A DNA stretch of 64,000 bases from Gluconacetobacter dulcium. Its GTDB lineage: Bacteria; Pseudomonadota; Alphaproteobacteria; Acetobacterales; Acetobacteraceae. The notes under the pieces are model-generated. The model ran no database searches. It worked only from the letters and a program-made list of their open reading frames with translations, and was not told where the DNA came from. This document shows, piece after piece, positions 6,101 through 38,095 of the stretch (its first letter is position 1; every line of letters starts with the position of its first letter). Position numbers and translations under genes: made by a program. Location: assembly GCF_014174165.1 (NCBI RefSeq), contig NZ_JABEQN010000005.1, forward strand, positions 1 to 64,000, written 5' to 3'.

Positions 6101-7708
6101 ATGCCCGCTGGCGCGCTGCCAGGGGGCGCCCTGCCCGTTGCGCCGGTTCCGCCCGTCTGGCTGGGGAATGGCTTGGCGCGGGTGATCGGGGCCGGCGGAT
6201 GGCGGACCGACCTGCTGATGCTGCTGGCGGGCGCGCTGGCGGCGCTGGCCTTTCCGCCGGTCGATCTGTTTCCGATCCTGATTCCGTGCTTCGCCGTGCT
6301 GACGGCGGCGATCGACGCCGCCAGTTCGTGGCGGGGGGCCGCGCGGCGGGGTTTTCTGTTCGGGCTGGGGCTGCATACCGCCGGGCTGTACTGGCTGACC
6401 GATGCGATCCTGGTCCGTGCGGATACGTTCTGGTGGCTGGTGCCGCTGGCCTCGCCCGGCTGCGCGCTGATCCTCGCGCCCATCGCGGCGTTTCCGGCGG
6501 CCCTGTGCCGTCTGGCCCCCGCAGGCTGGCGGCGCCTGCTGGCATTCGCCGGACTGTGGACGCTGTTCGACATGGCGCGGGTCTTCATCTTCAGCGGCTT
6601 TCCGTGGAATCCGCTGGGCACGACCTGGGAACTGCCGGGCCGGCTGGGCGACGTGATGATTCAGCCGGCAGCCTGGATCGGGGTCGATGGACTGACCCTC
6701 TGTACCGTTCTGCTGGCCCTGCTGCCGCAGGCGGGGCGGCGCGGTGTGCTGGCGCTTGTGGCGGGACTGGCGGTCTGGGGGCTGGCGGGCTGGGGGCGGC
6801 TGGCGCTGACGCCGCTGCCTGCCGGTCGGAACCCGATGGTGGTGCTGGTTCAGGGCAATGTGCCGGAAACCGAGAAGATCGGCGGCCGCGACAATGTCGC
6901 GATCTTTCGCCGCTATCTGGCCCTGACGCGCTCCGGCATTGCCGACGCGCTGCCGGAGACCGGCGGACGACCATTGGTGTATGTCTGGCCCGAGACGGCC
7001 TTTCCCGGCCTGCTGGCGGAAGACGATATCGCGCGGCGGATGATCGCGCGGGCCGGCGCGGGGGCGGCGGCGGGGGTAATCGGCACGATCCGCAGCGATT
7101 CCGAGGGGCGCTGGCGCAATAGCGTGATGGCGGTGACCGGGCCTGACGGGCGGGTGGCCGATCTCTACGACAAATCGCATCTGGTGCCGTTCGGCGAATA
7201 TCAGCCGCGTTTCCTGCCGTTCCACGTCGTGCCCGGCGAGGGCATGGCGGCGGGGAACGGCGTCCAGACCTGGCATCTGCCGGATGTGGCGCCGGTCGGG
7301 CCGCTGATCTGCTATGAGGTGATCTTCTCCGGTCAGGTCGTGGACGCGAAGGATCGTCCGGACTGGCTGGTCAATGTGACCAACGATGCCTGGTATGGCG
7401 ACAGCGCCGGGCCGCGCCAGCATCTGGCGGCGGTGCGGATGCGCGCGGTCGAGGAAGGGTTGCCGGTGGCGCGGGCCGCCAACACCGGCATTTCCGCCGT
7501 GTTCGATGCCCATGGCCATGAACTGGCGCGGCTGGGCTGGAACCGGCAGGGGGTGCTGGCCGTTTCCCTGGGGGGGGCATTGCCCGTGACAGTGTTCGGC
7601 CGGTGGGGACGTTGGATCCCGATCCTGCTGGCGATGATGACGCTGTTGCCCGCATTGGGAAAATGGCTGCCGGGAATCGGCAGGCGCATGGCGATCCGCC
7701 GCCCGTAG
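6101..7708 (+). CDS. lnt: Apolipoprotein N-acyltransferase Lnt
   Basis: Lnt is an inner-membrane enzyme that adds the third acyl chain to the N-terminal cysteine of lipoproteins. The 535-residue product has an N-terminal block of hydrophobic segments (about 30-240), a periplasmic nitrilase-like domain, and a last membrane helix near 505-525. The catalytic triad is visible: Glu in VWPETAFPG, Lys in DKSHLVPFGEYQP, and Cys in GPLICYEVIFSG; NDAWYGDSAGPRQHL follows as in all Lnt proteins. ATG 6101 lies five bases after the olsB stop; an in-frame GTG at 6080, inside olsB, is a possible alternative start. Confidence 0.95.
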   Translation: MPAGALPGGALPVAPVPPVWLGNGLARVIGAGGWRTDLLMLLAGALAALAFPPVDLFPILIPCFAVLTAAIDAASSWRGAARRGFLFGLGLHTAGLYWLTDAILVRADTFWWLVPLASPGCALILAPIAAFPAALCRLAPAGWRRLLAFAGLWTLFDMARVFIFSGFPWNPLGTTWELPGRLGDVMIQPAAWIGVDGLTLCTVLLALLPQAGRRGVLALVAGLAVWGLAGWGRLALTPLPAGRNPMVVLVQGNVPETEKIGGRDNVAIFRRYLALTRSGIADALPETGGRPLVYVWPETAFPGLLAEDDIARRMIARAGAGAAAGVIGTIRSDSEGRWRNSVMAVTGPDGRVADLYDKSHLVPFGEYQPRFLPFHVVPGEGMAAGNGVQTWHLPDVAPVGPLICYEVIFSGQVVDAKDRPDWLVNVTNDAWYGDSAGPRQHLAAVRMRAVEEGLPVARAANTGISAVFDAHGHELARLGWNRQGVLAVSLGGALPVTVFGRWGRWIPILLAMMTLLPALGKWLPGIGRRMAIRRP

Positions 7709-34842: not shown

Positions 34843-35229
34843 ATGAACACACGTCTCCGGTCTTCTTTCGCGCGCTCGGTCGGCCGGGTGGCGCTGGGCG
34901 TGCCGCCGGTTCTGGTTCTGCTGGCCGGCTGCGCCCAACCCCCCGCGCCGGTGGCGAGCCAGCCGGTGCGGCATCCGCCCTTGCAGTTCGCGCCGGGAAC
35001 GGTGACGGAAGCCCCGCCGCCCGCCAACGAGGCGCAACTGGTGAACGATCCCTCCGCGCCGCTCGATACGCCGCTCTGCGGTGCCGCGGCGCATGCGACG
35101 CAGGCCATGGCGGCGCGGGTGAATCCGGCGCCGCTGGCGTCGGGGAATGCCTGCGTGGCCAATGCGTGCTTTGATCCGCTGACCGGGACTTATATCGGCG
35201 CGGACGGGGAGCGGCATATCTGCCGTTGA
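34843..35229 (+). CDS. Small predicted lipoprotein, unknown function
   Basis: The 128-residue product starts MNTRLRSSFARSVGRVALGV and has a lipobox VLVLLAGC, so the cysteine near residue 30 should be lipid-modified by the Lgt/LspA/Lnt pathway (lnt is in this window). The mature part is Pro/Ala-rich with four further cysteines (LDTPLCGAAA, GNACVANACFDP and the terminal HICR), which may form disulfides. I do not recognise the family. ATG 34843 is preferred over an earlier in-frame ATG at 34759 that overlaps xseA. Confidence 0.72.
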   Translation: MNTRLRSSFARSVGRVALGVPPVLVLLAGCAQPPAPVASQPVRHPPLQFAPGTVTEAPPPANEAQLVNDPSAPLDTPLCGAAAHATQAMAARVNPAPLASGNACVANACFDPLTGTYIGADGERHICR

Positions 35230-35235
35230 GTATTT

Positions 35236-35355
35236 GTTCTTTTTTGAAAAAAAGAACCAAAAAACTTTTGATCTGTTTAGGACTCTTCTGCGCGGGTAGA
35301 GAGCGTTCTTAAACGAATAAAAGTCTTTTTGCTTCTTTTTCTTCAGAAAAAGAAG
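35236..35355. repeat. AT-rich paired inverted hairpin repeat, copy 1
   Basis: Left half (about 35236-35280) is a hairpin GTTCTTTTTT/GAAAAAAAGAAC followed by CAAAAAACTTTTGAT. Right half (about 35310-35355) is the same design reversed: TAAAAGTCTTTTTG then CTTCTTTTTCTTCAG closing to AAAAAGAAG. The halves are inverted copies of one unit separated by about 30 unrelated bases. Positions 35317-35355 are identical to 37564-37602. The hairpin next to a T/A-rich run on each side would act as a terminator. Confidence 0.8.
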
Positions 35356-35477
35356 GCTCTTTCTTTGCCCTCATGCCAACACAGACCGAGATCGCATAAG
35401 GCTTATCCGGAAACACGCCTGCGGTCGGTGCAGGTTATGATTGACAGCCGAAGCCACGGGGCAACATCGTCGGGGGG

Positions 35478-35963
35478 ATGAGCGGCCTCACTCCTCCGGA
35501 TGGCGCCAGTGACGGCTTGGCGACCGTTCACGTTTTTCCGCTGCGGCGCATGTTGCCGCTGGTCGATGCTGCGCTTTATCTGGGCATTCCCGCGCGACGG
35601 CTGCGTATGTTGGGCCTGCTGCATGCGGGGCCACGCCCGGCGGCGCGGAACGGGCGGACCCTGATGTATCGGGTCGAGGACCTGGATCGCTATGTGACGC
35701 AATTATACGGTCGGGCCAGGATTTCGGCGGGAGAAGAAGCGCGGCAGCGGCAGGAATGGCGGGCGCGGATCGCGGCGCCGCCCGTGCGGGACGCACGCGG
35801 GCGCCCGGCCAGGCTGATCGACCCCTGCATGCAGGCTTTGACGCTGGATGCGTTGGTATCGTCTGGCGGGCCGCTGGGGCTGAAGCTGCTGTTCGCCTCG
35901 GGGCTGGGGCTGATCTTTCTCTCTCATACGCCGGTGATGTGGCGGCTGTATGCGATGTTGTGA
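35478..35963 (+). CDS. Unknown protein with excisionase/MerR-like N-terminal motif and C-terminal membrane segment
   Basis: A 161-residue product. Residues about 25-75 (LPLVDAALYLGIPARRLRML, then GRTLMYRVEDLDRYV) look like the winged-helix 'excisionase/MerR-like' fold, in which a helix-turn-helix is followed by a wing and a D/E-L-x-x-Y-V helix. The middle is Arg-rich, and the last 30 residues (LGLKLLFASGLGLIFLSHTP) could span the membrane. A DNA-binding protein tethered to the membrane would be unusual. No neighbour clarifies its role, and a purely chance fold match cannot be excluded. Confidence 0.55.
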   Translation: MSGLTPPDGASDGLATVHVFPLRRMLPLVDAALYLGIPARRLRMLGLLHAGPRPAARNGRTLMYRVEDLDRYVTQLYGRARISAGEEARQRQEWRARIAAPPVRDARGRPARLIDPCMQALTLDALVSSGGPLGLKLLFASGLGLIFLSHTPVMWRLYAML

Positions 35964-36072
35964 TGCTTGCCCGCATAGGGGTGTGACGTCGGGAACATTT
36001 GCATCACGCACCGACGCCACAACCGTGGATTGCGCTCGAATTACAGCGGAATTGTGGCTTTTGGGGCGTTTG

Positions 36073-36459
36073 TCAGCAGGCTCCGGCGCAGGGTGGTTCC
36101 GGCGGCGGCAGCAGGCCACCGGTCAGGCCGGGCGGGCGCATGGAGGGCTCGGGCGCGCGGGCGCCGGGTGGTGGCGGGGGCACGATCTGCGGCACGTTCG
36201 GCGGCAGGCTCTGCACGTCCATCGGCTGGGCCTGGGGGATGGGCTGGCCGCGATAATAGAGCGGCCCGCGATAGCTCTGCGGCAACTGGGCCGCATTCAG
36301 CCGGTCGACCAGCGAGTCGCCTGTTCCATCGGGATAGGCGGAGTGCGATGGCCGGGGGGCCGAGGCCGGTGCGTGGCGCGCGCAGGACAGCGCCGGCGGC
36401 AGGCACAGGGCGGCGAGGGTGAGGCAGCCGGCAATCTGCCGATGGAGACGCGGGTTCAA
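36073..36459 (-). CDS. Small exported proline-rich protein, unknown function
   Basis: From the TTG at 36459 the 128-residue product begins MNPRLHRQIAGCLTLAALCL then PPALSC, a signal sequence that could be a lipoprotein type although the box (ALSC) is atypical. The mature part is Pro-rich (PQIVPPPPPGARAPEPSMRP), has no recognised domain, and ends PPEPPCAGAC. The frame stays open to an ATG at 36531, but that has no ribosome site, whereas AAAGGG precedes the TTG. It is divergent from the OmpH-like gene, an arrangement that suggests both serve the envelope. Confidence 0.55.
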   Translation of the reverse strand: MNPRLHRQIAGCLTLAALCLPPALSCARHAPASAPRPSHSAYPDGTGDSLVDRLNAAQLPQSYRGPLYYRGQPIPQAQPMDVQSLPPNVPQIVPPPPPGARAPEPSMRPPGLTGGLLPPPEPPCAGAC

Positions 36460-36657
36460 GGCGACGGACCCTTTCAGAGTGGGAGAGAGGGCAAGTATGG
36501 CATGTTCCGGGGTTGATCGTCGTGCCTGCATGTACGTGTTTGAACGGCCGAGGACTGGTCAGGCTCCCGGTGATCGGCTAGGCAGGGCAGCATTGCTGTT
36601 CTGCTGTTTCCGGCCTTCGCGCCGTCGCGTTTGCTCCCTGCCTTACGGATTGCGATC

Positions 36658-37443
36658 ATGACCGATATTTCCCGGCCCTCGTGCCGCCGGCTTCTGGCTG
36701 GATTCTTCGTTGTGACCGGGATGGGCGCCGTCCTGACCCCCGCTTTCGCGGCGGCGCCGGCGGCGCGGACAGCGCATGCGGCAGCGCCCGCGCCCGCGGC
36801 GGCTTCCGCTCCCGCCTCCGCTCCCGCCGGTGCCGACCAGCAGCCGCTTCTGCCCGCGCCGCCGGTGCCCGATTTCGCGCCGTTGCCGCCTGGCGCCAAG
36901 CCGCCCGCGCCGATCGTGGGCGTGTTCGATACCGATGCGATCATGCGGCAATCGGTTGCGATCCAGGAAGTCGAGAAGGAAATGGCCGCGCGGCGCGATG
37001 CCCTGATCCGCGAGGTGCGGACCGAGGAACAGCAGCTTCAGACCCTGCGCCAGCAGATGATGAATGCGCCCCGGGCCGAGGCGGAGGCCCAGCAGCGCGC
37101 CTTGCAGCAGCGCGCGGCGGCCGATCAGCGCAAGTTCGGCAATCGCAACCGCATTCTGGAGGAAGATATCCAGATCGCGTTGAATCAGGTTCAGCGTGAA
37201 ATCGCCCAGGTGGTGCATACCGTGGCGAAGGCGCGCGGGCTGACGCTGGTGGTGCAGTCGGGCCTGACCGTGCTGCATGGGCCGCAGGTCGATATCAGCG
37301 ACCAGGTGGCGAGCCGGCTGAATGCCATTCTGCCGCATGTCTATCTGCCGGCGGCGAACGAGGACCCGGAAGTGATCGCGAAATCGGGCAAGTTCCCGAC
37401 CGCGCCGGTACAGATGACCGACCCGCAGCAGCAGCAGGGATAA
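36658..37443 (+). CDS. OmpH/Skp-family periplasmic chaperone-like protein
   Basis: The 261-residue product has a signal peptide (RRLLAGFFVVTGMGAVLTPA then FA-AAP), a long Ala/Pro-rich spacer (about 40-85), and an OmpH domain: IVGVFDTDAIMRQSVAIQEV, a long coiled coil (about 110-195) and ARGLTLVVQSGLTVLHGPQV. Skp/OmpH proteins hold unfolded outer-membrane proteins in the periplasm. The spacer is longer than in classical Skp and it is not beside bamA or lpxD, so this may be a paralogue. ATG 36658 is the natural start. Confidence 0.82.
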   Translation: MTDISRPSCRRLLAGFFVVTGMGAVLTPAFAAAPAARTAHAAAPAPAAASAPASAPAGADQQPLLPAPPVPDFAPLPPGAKPPAPIVGVFDTDAIMRQSVAIQEVEKEMAARRDALIREVRTEEQQLQTLRQQMMNAPRAEAEAQQRALQQRAAADQRKFGNRNRILEEDIQIALNQVQREIAQVVHTVAKARGLTLVVQSGLTVLHGPQVDISDQVASRLNAILPHVYLPAANEDPEVIAKSGKFPTAPVQMTDPQQQQG

Positions 37444-37449
37444 GAAGGC

Positions 37450-37602
37450 GTTCTTCTGTAAGAAAAGACCCAAGAAACTCTTGAATCTTTAGAACGTGAT
37501 GCGGCCCGACAAATGGCCGCCTCACGTCCCGAACTCGCCTGCCGCAAGCAGATCGAAAAACGGATAAAAGTCTTTTTGCTTCTTTTTCTTCAGAAAAAGA
37601 AG
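37450..37602. repeat. AT-rich paired inverted hairpin repeat, copy 2
   Basis: The left half (37450-37490) has GTTCTT-CTGT-AAGAA then GACCCAAGAAACTCTTGAAT, diverged from copy 1 but with the stem kept. The right half (37557-37602) includes 39 bases identical to copy 1. The spacer is about 65 bases here against about 30 in copy 1 and is unrelated in sequence. It fills the gap between the convergent OmpH-like and ybaK genes and ends one base before the ybaK stop, so each half can terminate one of them. Confidence 0.8.
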
Positions 37603-37603
37603 A

Positions 37604-38095
37604 TCACTCCGCTGTCAGATCCGCCAATATGGCCGCGCTGGCGCGCAATGCGTCGGCCGGTACCAGGCGTACCTGCAAGCCGCGCTGGCCGCCATTGGTA
37701 TAAAGATAAGGCAGGTCGGCGGCCTGCCGCGCGAAGGCCGTGGGCACGCGCTTCTTCTGCCCGAACGGGCTGATGCCGCCGACGCGGAAGCCGGTGATGC
37801 GCTCGGCATCGGCCGGCTTCATCATCCTGGCGCTCTTGCCGCCGAAGGCGGTGGCCAGTTTCTTCATGCTGACTTCGTGGTCCGACGGCACGACGACGCA
37901 TACGGCGTTGCCGTCGATTTCCGCCATCAGGGTCTTGAAGACGCGGGCCGGGGGTTCGCCGATCGCTTCGGCGGCCTGGACGCCCAGGCGGTCGGCGTCG
38001 GGGTCGTAGCTGTAGAGTACGGCGGTGAAGGCGATTCCGGCGCGGGTGAGGGCCAGCGTGGCCGGCGTGCCGGGGGTCTGGGGTTTCTTGGCCAT
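37604..38095 (-). CDS. ybaK: Cys-tRNA(Pro)/aminoacyl-tRNA deacylase YbaK
   Basis: YbaK removes cysteine wrongly attached to tRNA(Pro). The 163-residue single-domain protein shows the family features VFKTLMAEIDGNAVCVVVPS, KKLATAFGGKSARMMKPADA and the catalytic-loop GGISPFGQKKRVPTA with the conserved lysine earlier in KTL. Length is standard. The stop is next to the right half of the AT-rich repeat. Confidence 0.93.
   Translation of the reverse strand: MAKKPQTPGTPATLALTRAGIAFTAVLYSYDPDADRLGVQAAEAIGEPPARVFKTLMAEIDGNAVCVVVPSDHEVSMKKLATAFGGKSARMMKPADAERITGFRVGGISPFGQKKRVPTAFARQAADLPYLYTNGGQRGLQVRLVPADALRASAAILADLTAE

Follow-up and report, generated by a model that had tools for sequence, protein, structure and literature searches.

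An A/T-rich paired-hairpin repeat of the Acetobacteraceae as a candidate bidirectional transcript-end element

Introduction

Two A/T-rich segments of a 64,000-nucleotide stretch of Gluconacetobacter dulcium DNA (the window), at positions 35236–35355 and 37450–37602, each carry a pair of facing hairpins. The original prediction, made from the letters of the window, took them for copies of a repeated intergenic element that supplies back-to-back terminators, or of a small mobile or recombining repeat. The question raised by this locus is what kind of repeat the two segments belong to, how its copies came to their present places and what they do there.

Results

Two paired-hairpin copies in the window

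We re-read the sequence and found both A/T-rich paired-hairpin copies as they had been described. In copy 1, the left unit (L type, 35236–35269, minus strand) consists of an outer hairpin at 35236–35257 followed by the inward run CCAAAAAACTTTT, the ends of the centre (35270–35310) pair together in the predicted fold and lengthen the central stem, and the right unit (R type, 35311–35355, plus strand) opens with AAACGAATAAAAGTCTTTTTG and closes with a hairpin at 35332–35355. Copy 2 has a decayed L-type left unit (37450–37481, minus strand) that lies 7 edits from the consensus, a centre (37482–37557) that exceeds most centres of this genome in length, and an R unit (37558–37602, plus strand) identical to that of copy 1 at 44 of 45 nt. 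The 39 identical bases originally reported for the right units extend to 45 nt with one mismatch (35311–35355 versus 37558–37602), and the reported divergence of left units and spacers holds as well: the centres of the two copies differ, and that of copy 2 is also unlike its orthologues, with 25–27% identity to the centres in the genomes G174, G200 and G042. The stop codon of a BA14K-like ORF ends at 35229, 6 nt before copy 1; an OmpH-like gene ends at 37443, 6 nt before copy 2, and 1 nt past copy 2 lies the end (37604) of a minus-strand gene that has a tRNA_edit domain. A search for the 37-mer of the right unit with up to 3 mismatches returned just these two sites in the 64-kb window, where 0 were expected from 100 shuffles, which rules out chance.

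A repeat family of the Acetobacteraceae

A search of the 4.41-Mb genome for the 37-nt right unit (up to 3 mismatches) gave 37 copies, 24 of them exact, and a reversed-pattern control gave 0. The inner core was found 63 times (control 7), mostly within units; we rejected a DNA uptake sequence as a candidate, since the core is too rare for one. The repeated intergenic element of the original prediction was borne out, and its many copies are spread over many genera: the R unit (up to 3 mismatches) occurs in 43 of 200 Acetobacteraceae genomes and 26 of 102 genera, with a maximum of 273 copies in one genome (G171). A second draw, consisting of 150 genomes that all belong to the Acetobacteraceae and searched with a slightly wider pattern, yielded 28 genomes with matches. 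In an Alphaproteobacteria draw of 289 genomes, 0 of 285 from other families of the class held the R unit, the sole match being this genome. In the genomes searched, the repeat family is confined to one bacterial family, the Acetobacteraceae.

Named matches among those listed include Gluconacetobacter, Asaia, Nguyenibacter and many Acetobacteraceae or Rhodospirillales MAGs, and full elements with about 79% identity were found on two plasmids of Pseudoroseomonas cervicalis. Copy number is patchy within genera, with 72, 0 and 0 copies in one genus (g56), 54 and 0 in another (g49) and 2 to 49 in the genus of this genome. Presumably a similar hairpin occurs in Komagataeibacter. An Rfam search of 34900–37900 gave no match at the gathering score; two plastid 3′UTR matches (27.7 versus 55.8 bits and 26.5 versus 48.4 bits) were sub-threshold and were taken as chance A/U-rich hairpins. 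No published description of the repeat was found in searches of open-licence PMC papers. A second and different repeat, about 85–120 bp long and present many times across the genus, was seen next to an R unit at L023:4341–4461 in genome C25.

Layout, folding and conservation of the units

The full element is about 120 bp long and has one hairpin on either side of a central inverted repeat; each copy runs from the left hairpin through an inward CAAAAA-ACTTTT run, the centre and the reverse of the run to the right hairpin. Taken from all 37 copies of this genome, the full layout is GTTCTTTTTTGAAAAAAAGAAC, CAAAAAACTTTTGATTCGTTCAGG, a loop, CCTGAACGGATAAAAGTCTTTTTG and CTTCTTTTTCTTCAGAAAAAGAAG. 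In the inner-core search, an L-type unit was found to face the R unit about 63–65 bp away in many own copies. By a strict pairing count, the loci of this genome comprised 22 L-R pairs, 15 solo R units and 1 solo L unit, and 80 named loci among the matches listed gave 70 L-R, 7 R-R and 2 L-L pairs along with 32 solo R and 15 solo L units. A pair normally consists of two different unit types, L and R.

The plus strand of copy 1 is predicted to fold into two outer hairpins and a central stem (−41.8 kcal/mol, z −4.4), while its minus strand and the plus strand of another copy (L026) fold rather as a single long stem. The outer hairpins alone are weak, at −5.8 and −8.9 kcal/mol, the latter value being that of the right hairpin of copy 1. 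Compensatory changes were seen as CTCC..GGAG in one copy of this genome and as GTGC..GCAC at the 89362 site in G042, and the top stem pair varies as C-G, G-C and T-A. Among 19 distinct R hairpins there were 11 double changes, 6 single G-U changes and 20 broken pairs; the corresponding counts for 15 distinct L hairpins were 1, 10 and 23. Because the units vary so little, covariation gives modest support only, and conservation of the sequence itself appears as the stronger signal. The TTCA loop is kept in 202 of 212 R contexts (the named ones among the matches listed), and the R contexts behind the consensus and covariation counts were largely pre-selected by an exact pattern. The named loci (L054–L133, among the matches listed) were obtained with the exact 39-nt pattern, which inflates R-unit conservation in those counts; comparisons at orthologous sites are mostly free of this bias.

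Two variants of the layout were observed. At the orthologue of the 89362 site in G200 (L205:13967–14021), the R hairpin has the same stem and a TGAA loop instead of TTCA, as expected if the hairpin had been flipped in place. At L023:4226–4350 and 6631–6850, with orthologues in L233–L236, the element is longer, and its centre contains a common stretch, CGTTTCTCGATAGCATCCGGATGG..AAAAATCCATAG, that is kept between species, unlike other element centres.

Inheritance in place and apparent recombination between copies

At sites with readable flanks, inheritance of the element in place prevails in G204, G174, G200, G206 and G042 and is frequent in G205; G202 and G123 lack it at the compared sites and hold 12 and 2 unit copies elsewhere, respectively. 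Identity to this genome at orthologous sites was 94.8% for the R unit, 87.3% for the L unit, 68% for the centre and 90.8% for the flanks, in 27 comparisons covering 5 of 8 orthologous sites, with the pair 96753/G205 dropped (no R unit) and the solo-hairpin G206 row at 37450 retained. Conservation at these five sites, all of them other than that of copy 1, is highest in the R unit and lowest in the centre. One hairpin is left in G206 at the OmpH site and in G205 at 96753, as if L and R had fused via deletion. The sites that lack the element in G174, G200 and G206 (35236) and in G202 (104436) have flanks too diverged for the junction to be read. These patterns and the patchy copy number together suggest that the element multiplied in ancestors and then descended vertically, with occasional loss.

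These observations bear on a rival explanation, in which the element is a non-autonomous mobile element (MITE- or REPIN-like) served by an enzyme from elsewhere and its position at stop codons reflects tolerated or aimed insertion. Such mobility would account for the strongly differing copy numbers inside genera, for the plasmid copies and for the centres, which are the same in paralogous own copies and different in other genera. It is opposed by the occupation of orthologous sites across a clade of the genus, by the lack of an excess of 2–6 nt direct repeats (target-site duplications) beside 103 elements, and by the fact that no clean recent insertion was seen at the compared orthologous sites. 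In addition, the Y1_Tnp domain (PF01797) of RAYT transposases had no match in this genome and was present in just 5 of 30 genomes searched. The small mobile repeat of the original prediction is to this extent unsupported as regards present-day mobility, and we consider a mobile element a somewhat unlikely explanation.

The suggestion of a recombining repeat fared better. In the sister species G204, which is about 95–98% identical to this genome at compared sites, a single element stands between the left flank of copy 1 (97%) and the right flank of copy 2 (96%), and the segment between the copies (about 2.2 kb, with the OmpH-like gene) has no G204 match beyond 46 bp; G042, G174 and G205 hold this segment whole. 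Deletion by recombination between the two copies of the window is the simplest reading, and G204 apparently lost about 2.2 kb together with the OmpH-like gene in this way.

Position behind stop codons

We compared 93 deduplicated full intergenic elements (22 own and 71 named, the latter among the matches listed) with 242 intergenic regions of at least 100 bp without the element, using our own codon-usage gene caller. Full elements lay between convergent genes in 30 cases, tandem genes in 63 and divergent genes in 0 (named ones among the matches listed), against 25, 143 and 74 in the background, in a sample of non-independent elements from related genomes that leaves out copies without a recognisable L unit. 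Convergent contexts were enriched (Fisher p = 0.005 for own elements and 0.0003 for named ones among the matches listed) and divergent contexts depleted (p = 0.0006 and 3.5e-9, respectively, the latter again among the matches listed). With L-less copies added, divergent contexts amounted to 1 of 35 own and 2 of 98 named copies (among the matches listed). A facing stop codon lay within 15 nt of the outer end in 78 of the 93 elements (named ones among the matches listed), whereas about 40 were expected when the same elements were placed randomly in the same regions, and many elements sit 1–4 nt from the stop codon. The RefSeq annotation of the two plasmid copies agrees: two convergent CDSs end 9 and 4 nt from one of them, and a CDS ends 6 nt from the other. 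Among the types of explanation, a role at the ends of genes has the best support.

At L025:2585, L030:2498 and L031:2578, the frame of the neighbouring gene appears, by the gene caller only, to enter the R unit, so that the element supplies the stop codon; such a frame would add a short C-terminal tail.

The element as a candidate transcript end

The location of the elements and their folds on both strands fit the back-to-back terminators of the original prediction, whereas solo units behind tandem genes fit this part of it badly. Behind a gene, each strand offers a stable stem and then a U-rich, interrupted tract, as in an intrinsic terminator. In the proposed mechanism, full-length copies would have multiplied in ancestors of the lineage and been inherited in place thereafter. 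Whichever neighbour is transcribed, its RNA would contain the central stem and next to it the inner, U-rich arm of the far unit, which reads CUUUUUGCUUCUUUUUC or UUUUUUGGUUCUUUUUUU depending on the strand; together these would end transcription, and the A/U hairpins would cap the RNA 3′ end. Because the stem and a far-unit U-rich arm are available on both strands, one element could serve the ends of both neighbouring genes. By this model, the copies probably mark transcript ends; termination by the element is what the predicted folds would provide, and protection of the RNA may be a function as well.

The transcript-end reading is helped by the L-less copies of this genome, in which the left gene points toward the remaining stem and U-rich tract in 8 of 8 cases. 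It is hurt by 9 of 23 L-less named copies (among the matches listed), whose flanking genes are both read from the R side, where the far-unit U-rich tract is gone. Also counting against it, the outer hairpins are weak, no uninterrupted U run follows either of them, the U-rich arms being broken by G and C, and the close relatives G174, G200 and G206 have neither a copy at 35236 nor an obvious substitute. In tandem pairs the next gene may start 8–30 nt past the element, which leaves little room for a promoter. Losses of near and far units showed no clear asymmetry when own and named loci (the latter among the matches listed) were pooled.

By analogy with E. coli, the hairpin beside the stop codon might instead stall the terminating ribosome and lower expression of the upstream gene. 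One report counts 446 REPs, of 4,072 in E. coli, that have a stop codon no more than 15 nt away, and attributes ribosome stalling and lower upstream expression to REPs in that position (PMC12306157). The close facing stops of our full elements agree with this, and stalling would account for solo units immediately behind a stop codon. The hairpins here are, however, A/U-rich and weak, many of them lie 1–4 nt from the stop, and the facing pairs and the far unit kept in tandem contexts are left unexplained. A hairpin 1–4 nt from a stop codon is possibly inside the ribosome footprint. We regard stalling as doubtful.

A double-stranded or cruciform DNA site between gene ends, at which gyrase or a nucleoid protein would bind in the way described for BIMEs, would be consistent with the enrichment at convergent gene ends and with a sequence, including the TTCA loop, conserved beyond base pairing, although the R contexts that show this were largely pre-selected by exact pattern. 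The tight spacing to stop codons, as opposed to mid-intergenic positions, points to RNA or translation, and a DNA site seems to us improbable.

A local duplication inside the window without wider meaning, suggested by two copies 2.2 kb apart with nearly identical right units, has a negligible chance of being correct and is ruled out as the origin by the 37 genome copies, so that these are not the only two copies in the genome; the two copies moreover have unlike left units and unlike centres, and in G042, G174 and G200 the left unit of copy 2 is intact and its centre is a different one.

GC-rich hairpins at the same gene ends

In relatives without the A/T element, GC-rich hairpins were seen directly behind the same stop codons (L188, L189, L209, L221 and L250, in G123 and G201), at orthologues of window positions 37443–37604 and of other element sites. 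Some have a similar facing layout, with AACCC..GGGTT inside. Judged by their sequence and place, they are possibly a functional counterpart of the A/T element. Counts of A/T copies against strict-pattern GC matches were 0 versus 27 in G049, 54 versus 1 in G178, 0 versus 16 in G076 and 44 versus 4 in G190. Mutual replacement stays an idea, because G132 (0 versus 0), G202 (12 versus 0) and G123 (2 versus 5) break this suggestive contrast.

Discussion

We compared the element with known kinds of repeat and terminator. Like REP, BIME and REPIN sequences, it is built of short palindromic extragenic units in high copy number (37 here and up to 273 elsewhere), often as inverted pairs of two types. 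E. coli BIMEs contain inverted pairs of the unit types Y and Z2 (PMC2817692), and REPs are frequently found close behind stop codons (PMC12306157). The element differs in being A/T-rich inside a 67% GC genome and in a unit consensus (37 own and 101 named R contexts, the latter among the matches listed) without a GTAG/GTRG or CGTC tag; CGTC repeats are reported to be missing from the Acetobacteraceae (PMC3733652). A RAYT-driven REP was rejected, no Y1_Tnp having been found in this genome.

The likeness to ERIC/IRU and NEMIS/Correia elements lies in a length of about 105–155 bp, imperfect palindromy, intergenic position and occurrence in several genera or species. The inverted ends of such elements and of MITEs are present, with L facing R in 22 own and 70 named pairs (the latter among the matches listed). 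Transcripts of ERIC/IRU and NEMIS/Correia fold into long stem-loops (PMC2229807). Those elements differ in their TA target duplications and TA ends, none of which was seen here; by inspection the sequences are unrelated, and the present element has two hairpin units and a central stem. Since the tag, transposase and target-duplication features are missing, we place the element in neither the REP nor the MITE class.

Bidirectional intrinsic terminators share with it an A-tract, stem and U-tract on both strands and a place behind stops that is enriched between convergent genes. They differ from it, the element having one near-fixed sequence across genera, an extra hairpin at each end and interrupted U tracts. 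With a confidence that we would call even, we read it as a REP/ERIC-like palindromic repeat that would act as a bidirectional transcript-end element.

A broader and tentative proposal, which we think rather unlikely as it stands, is that the Acetobacteraceae possess a sequence-constrained transcript-end module, ancestrally multiplied, kept alike by selection or conversion, and swappable with GC-rich paired hairpins at the same gene ends in element-less relatives. This would be a swappable set of 3′ ends, unlike ordinary single terminators.

If the transcript-end reading is true, tens to hundreds of genes in many genera would owe their 3′ ends to one repeat family. The finding also bears on the persistence of palindromic repeats where no RAYT gene is found, and the apparent deletion in G204 offers a concrete case of gene loss through recombination between two copies. 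Related species that differ at the same site, some having the full element and others a solo hairpin, a hairpin rich in GC or none of these, would constitute a natural experiment on the function of such repeats.
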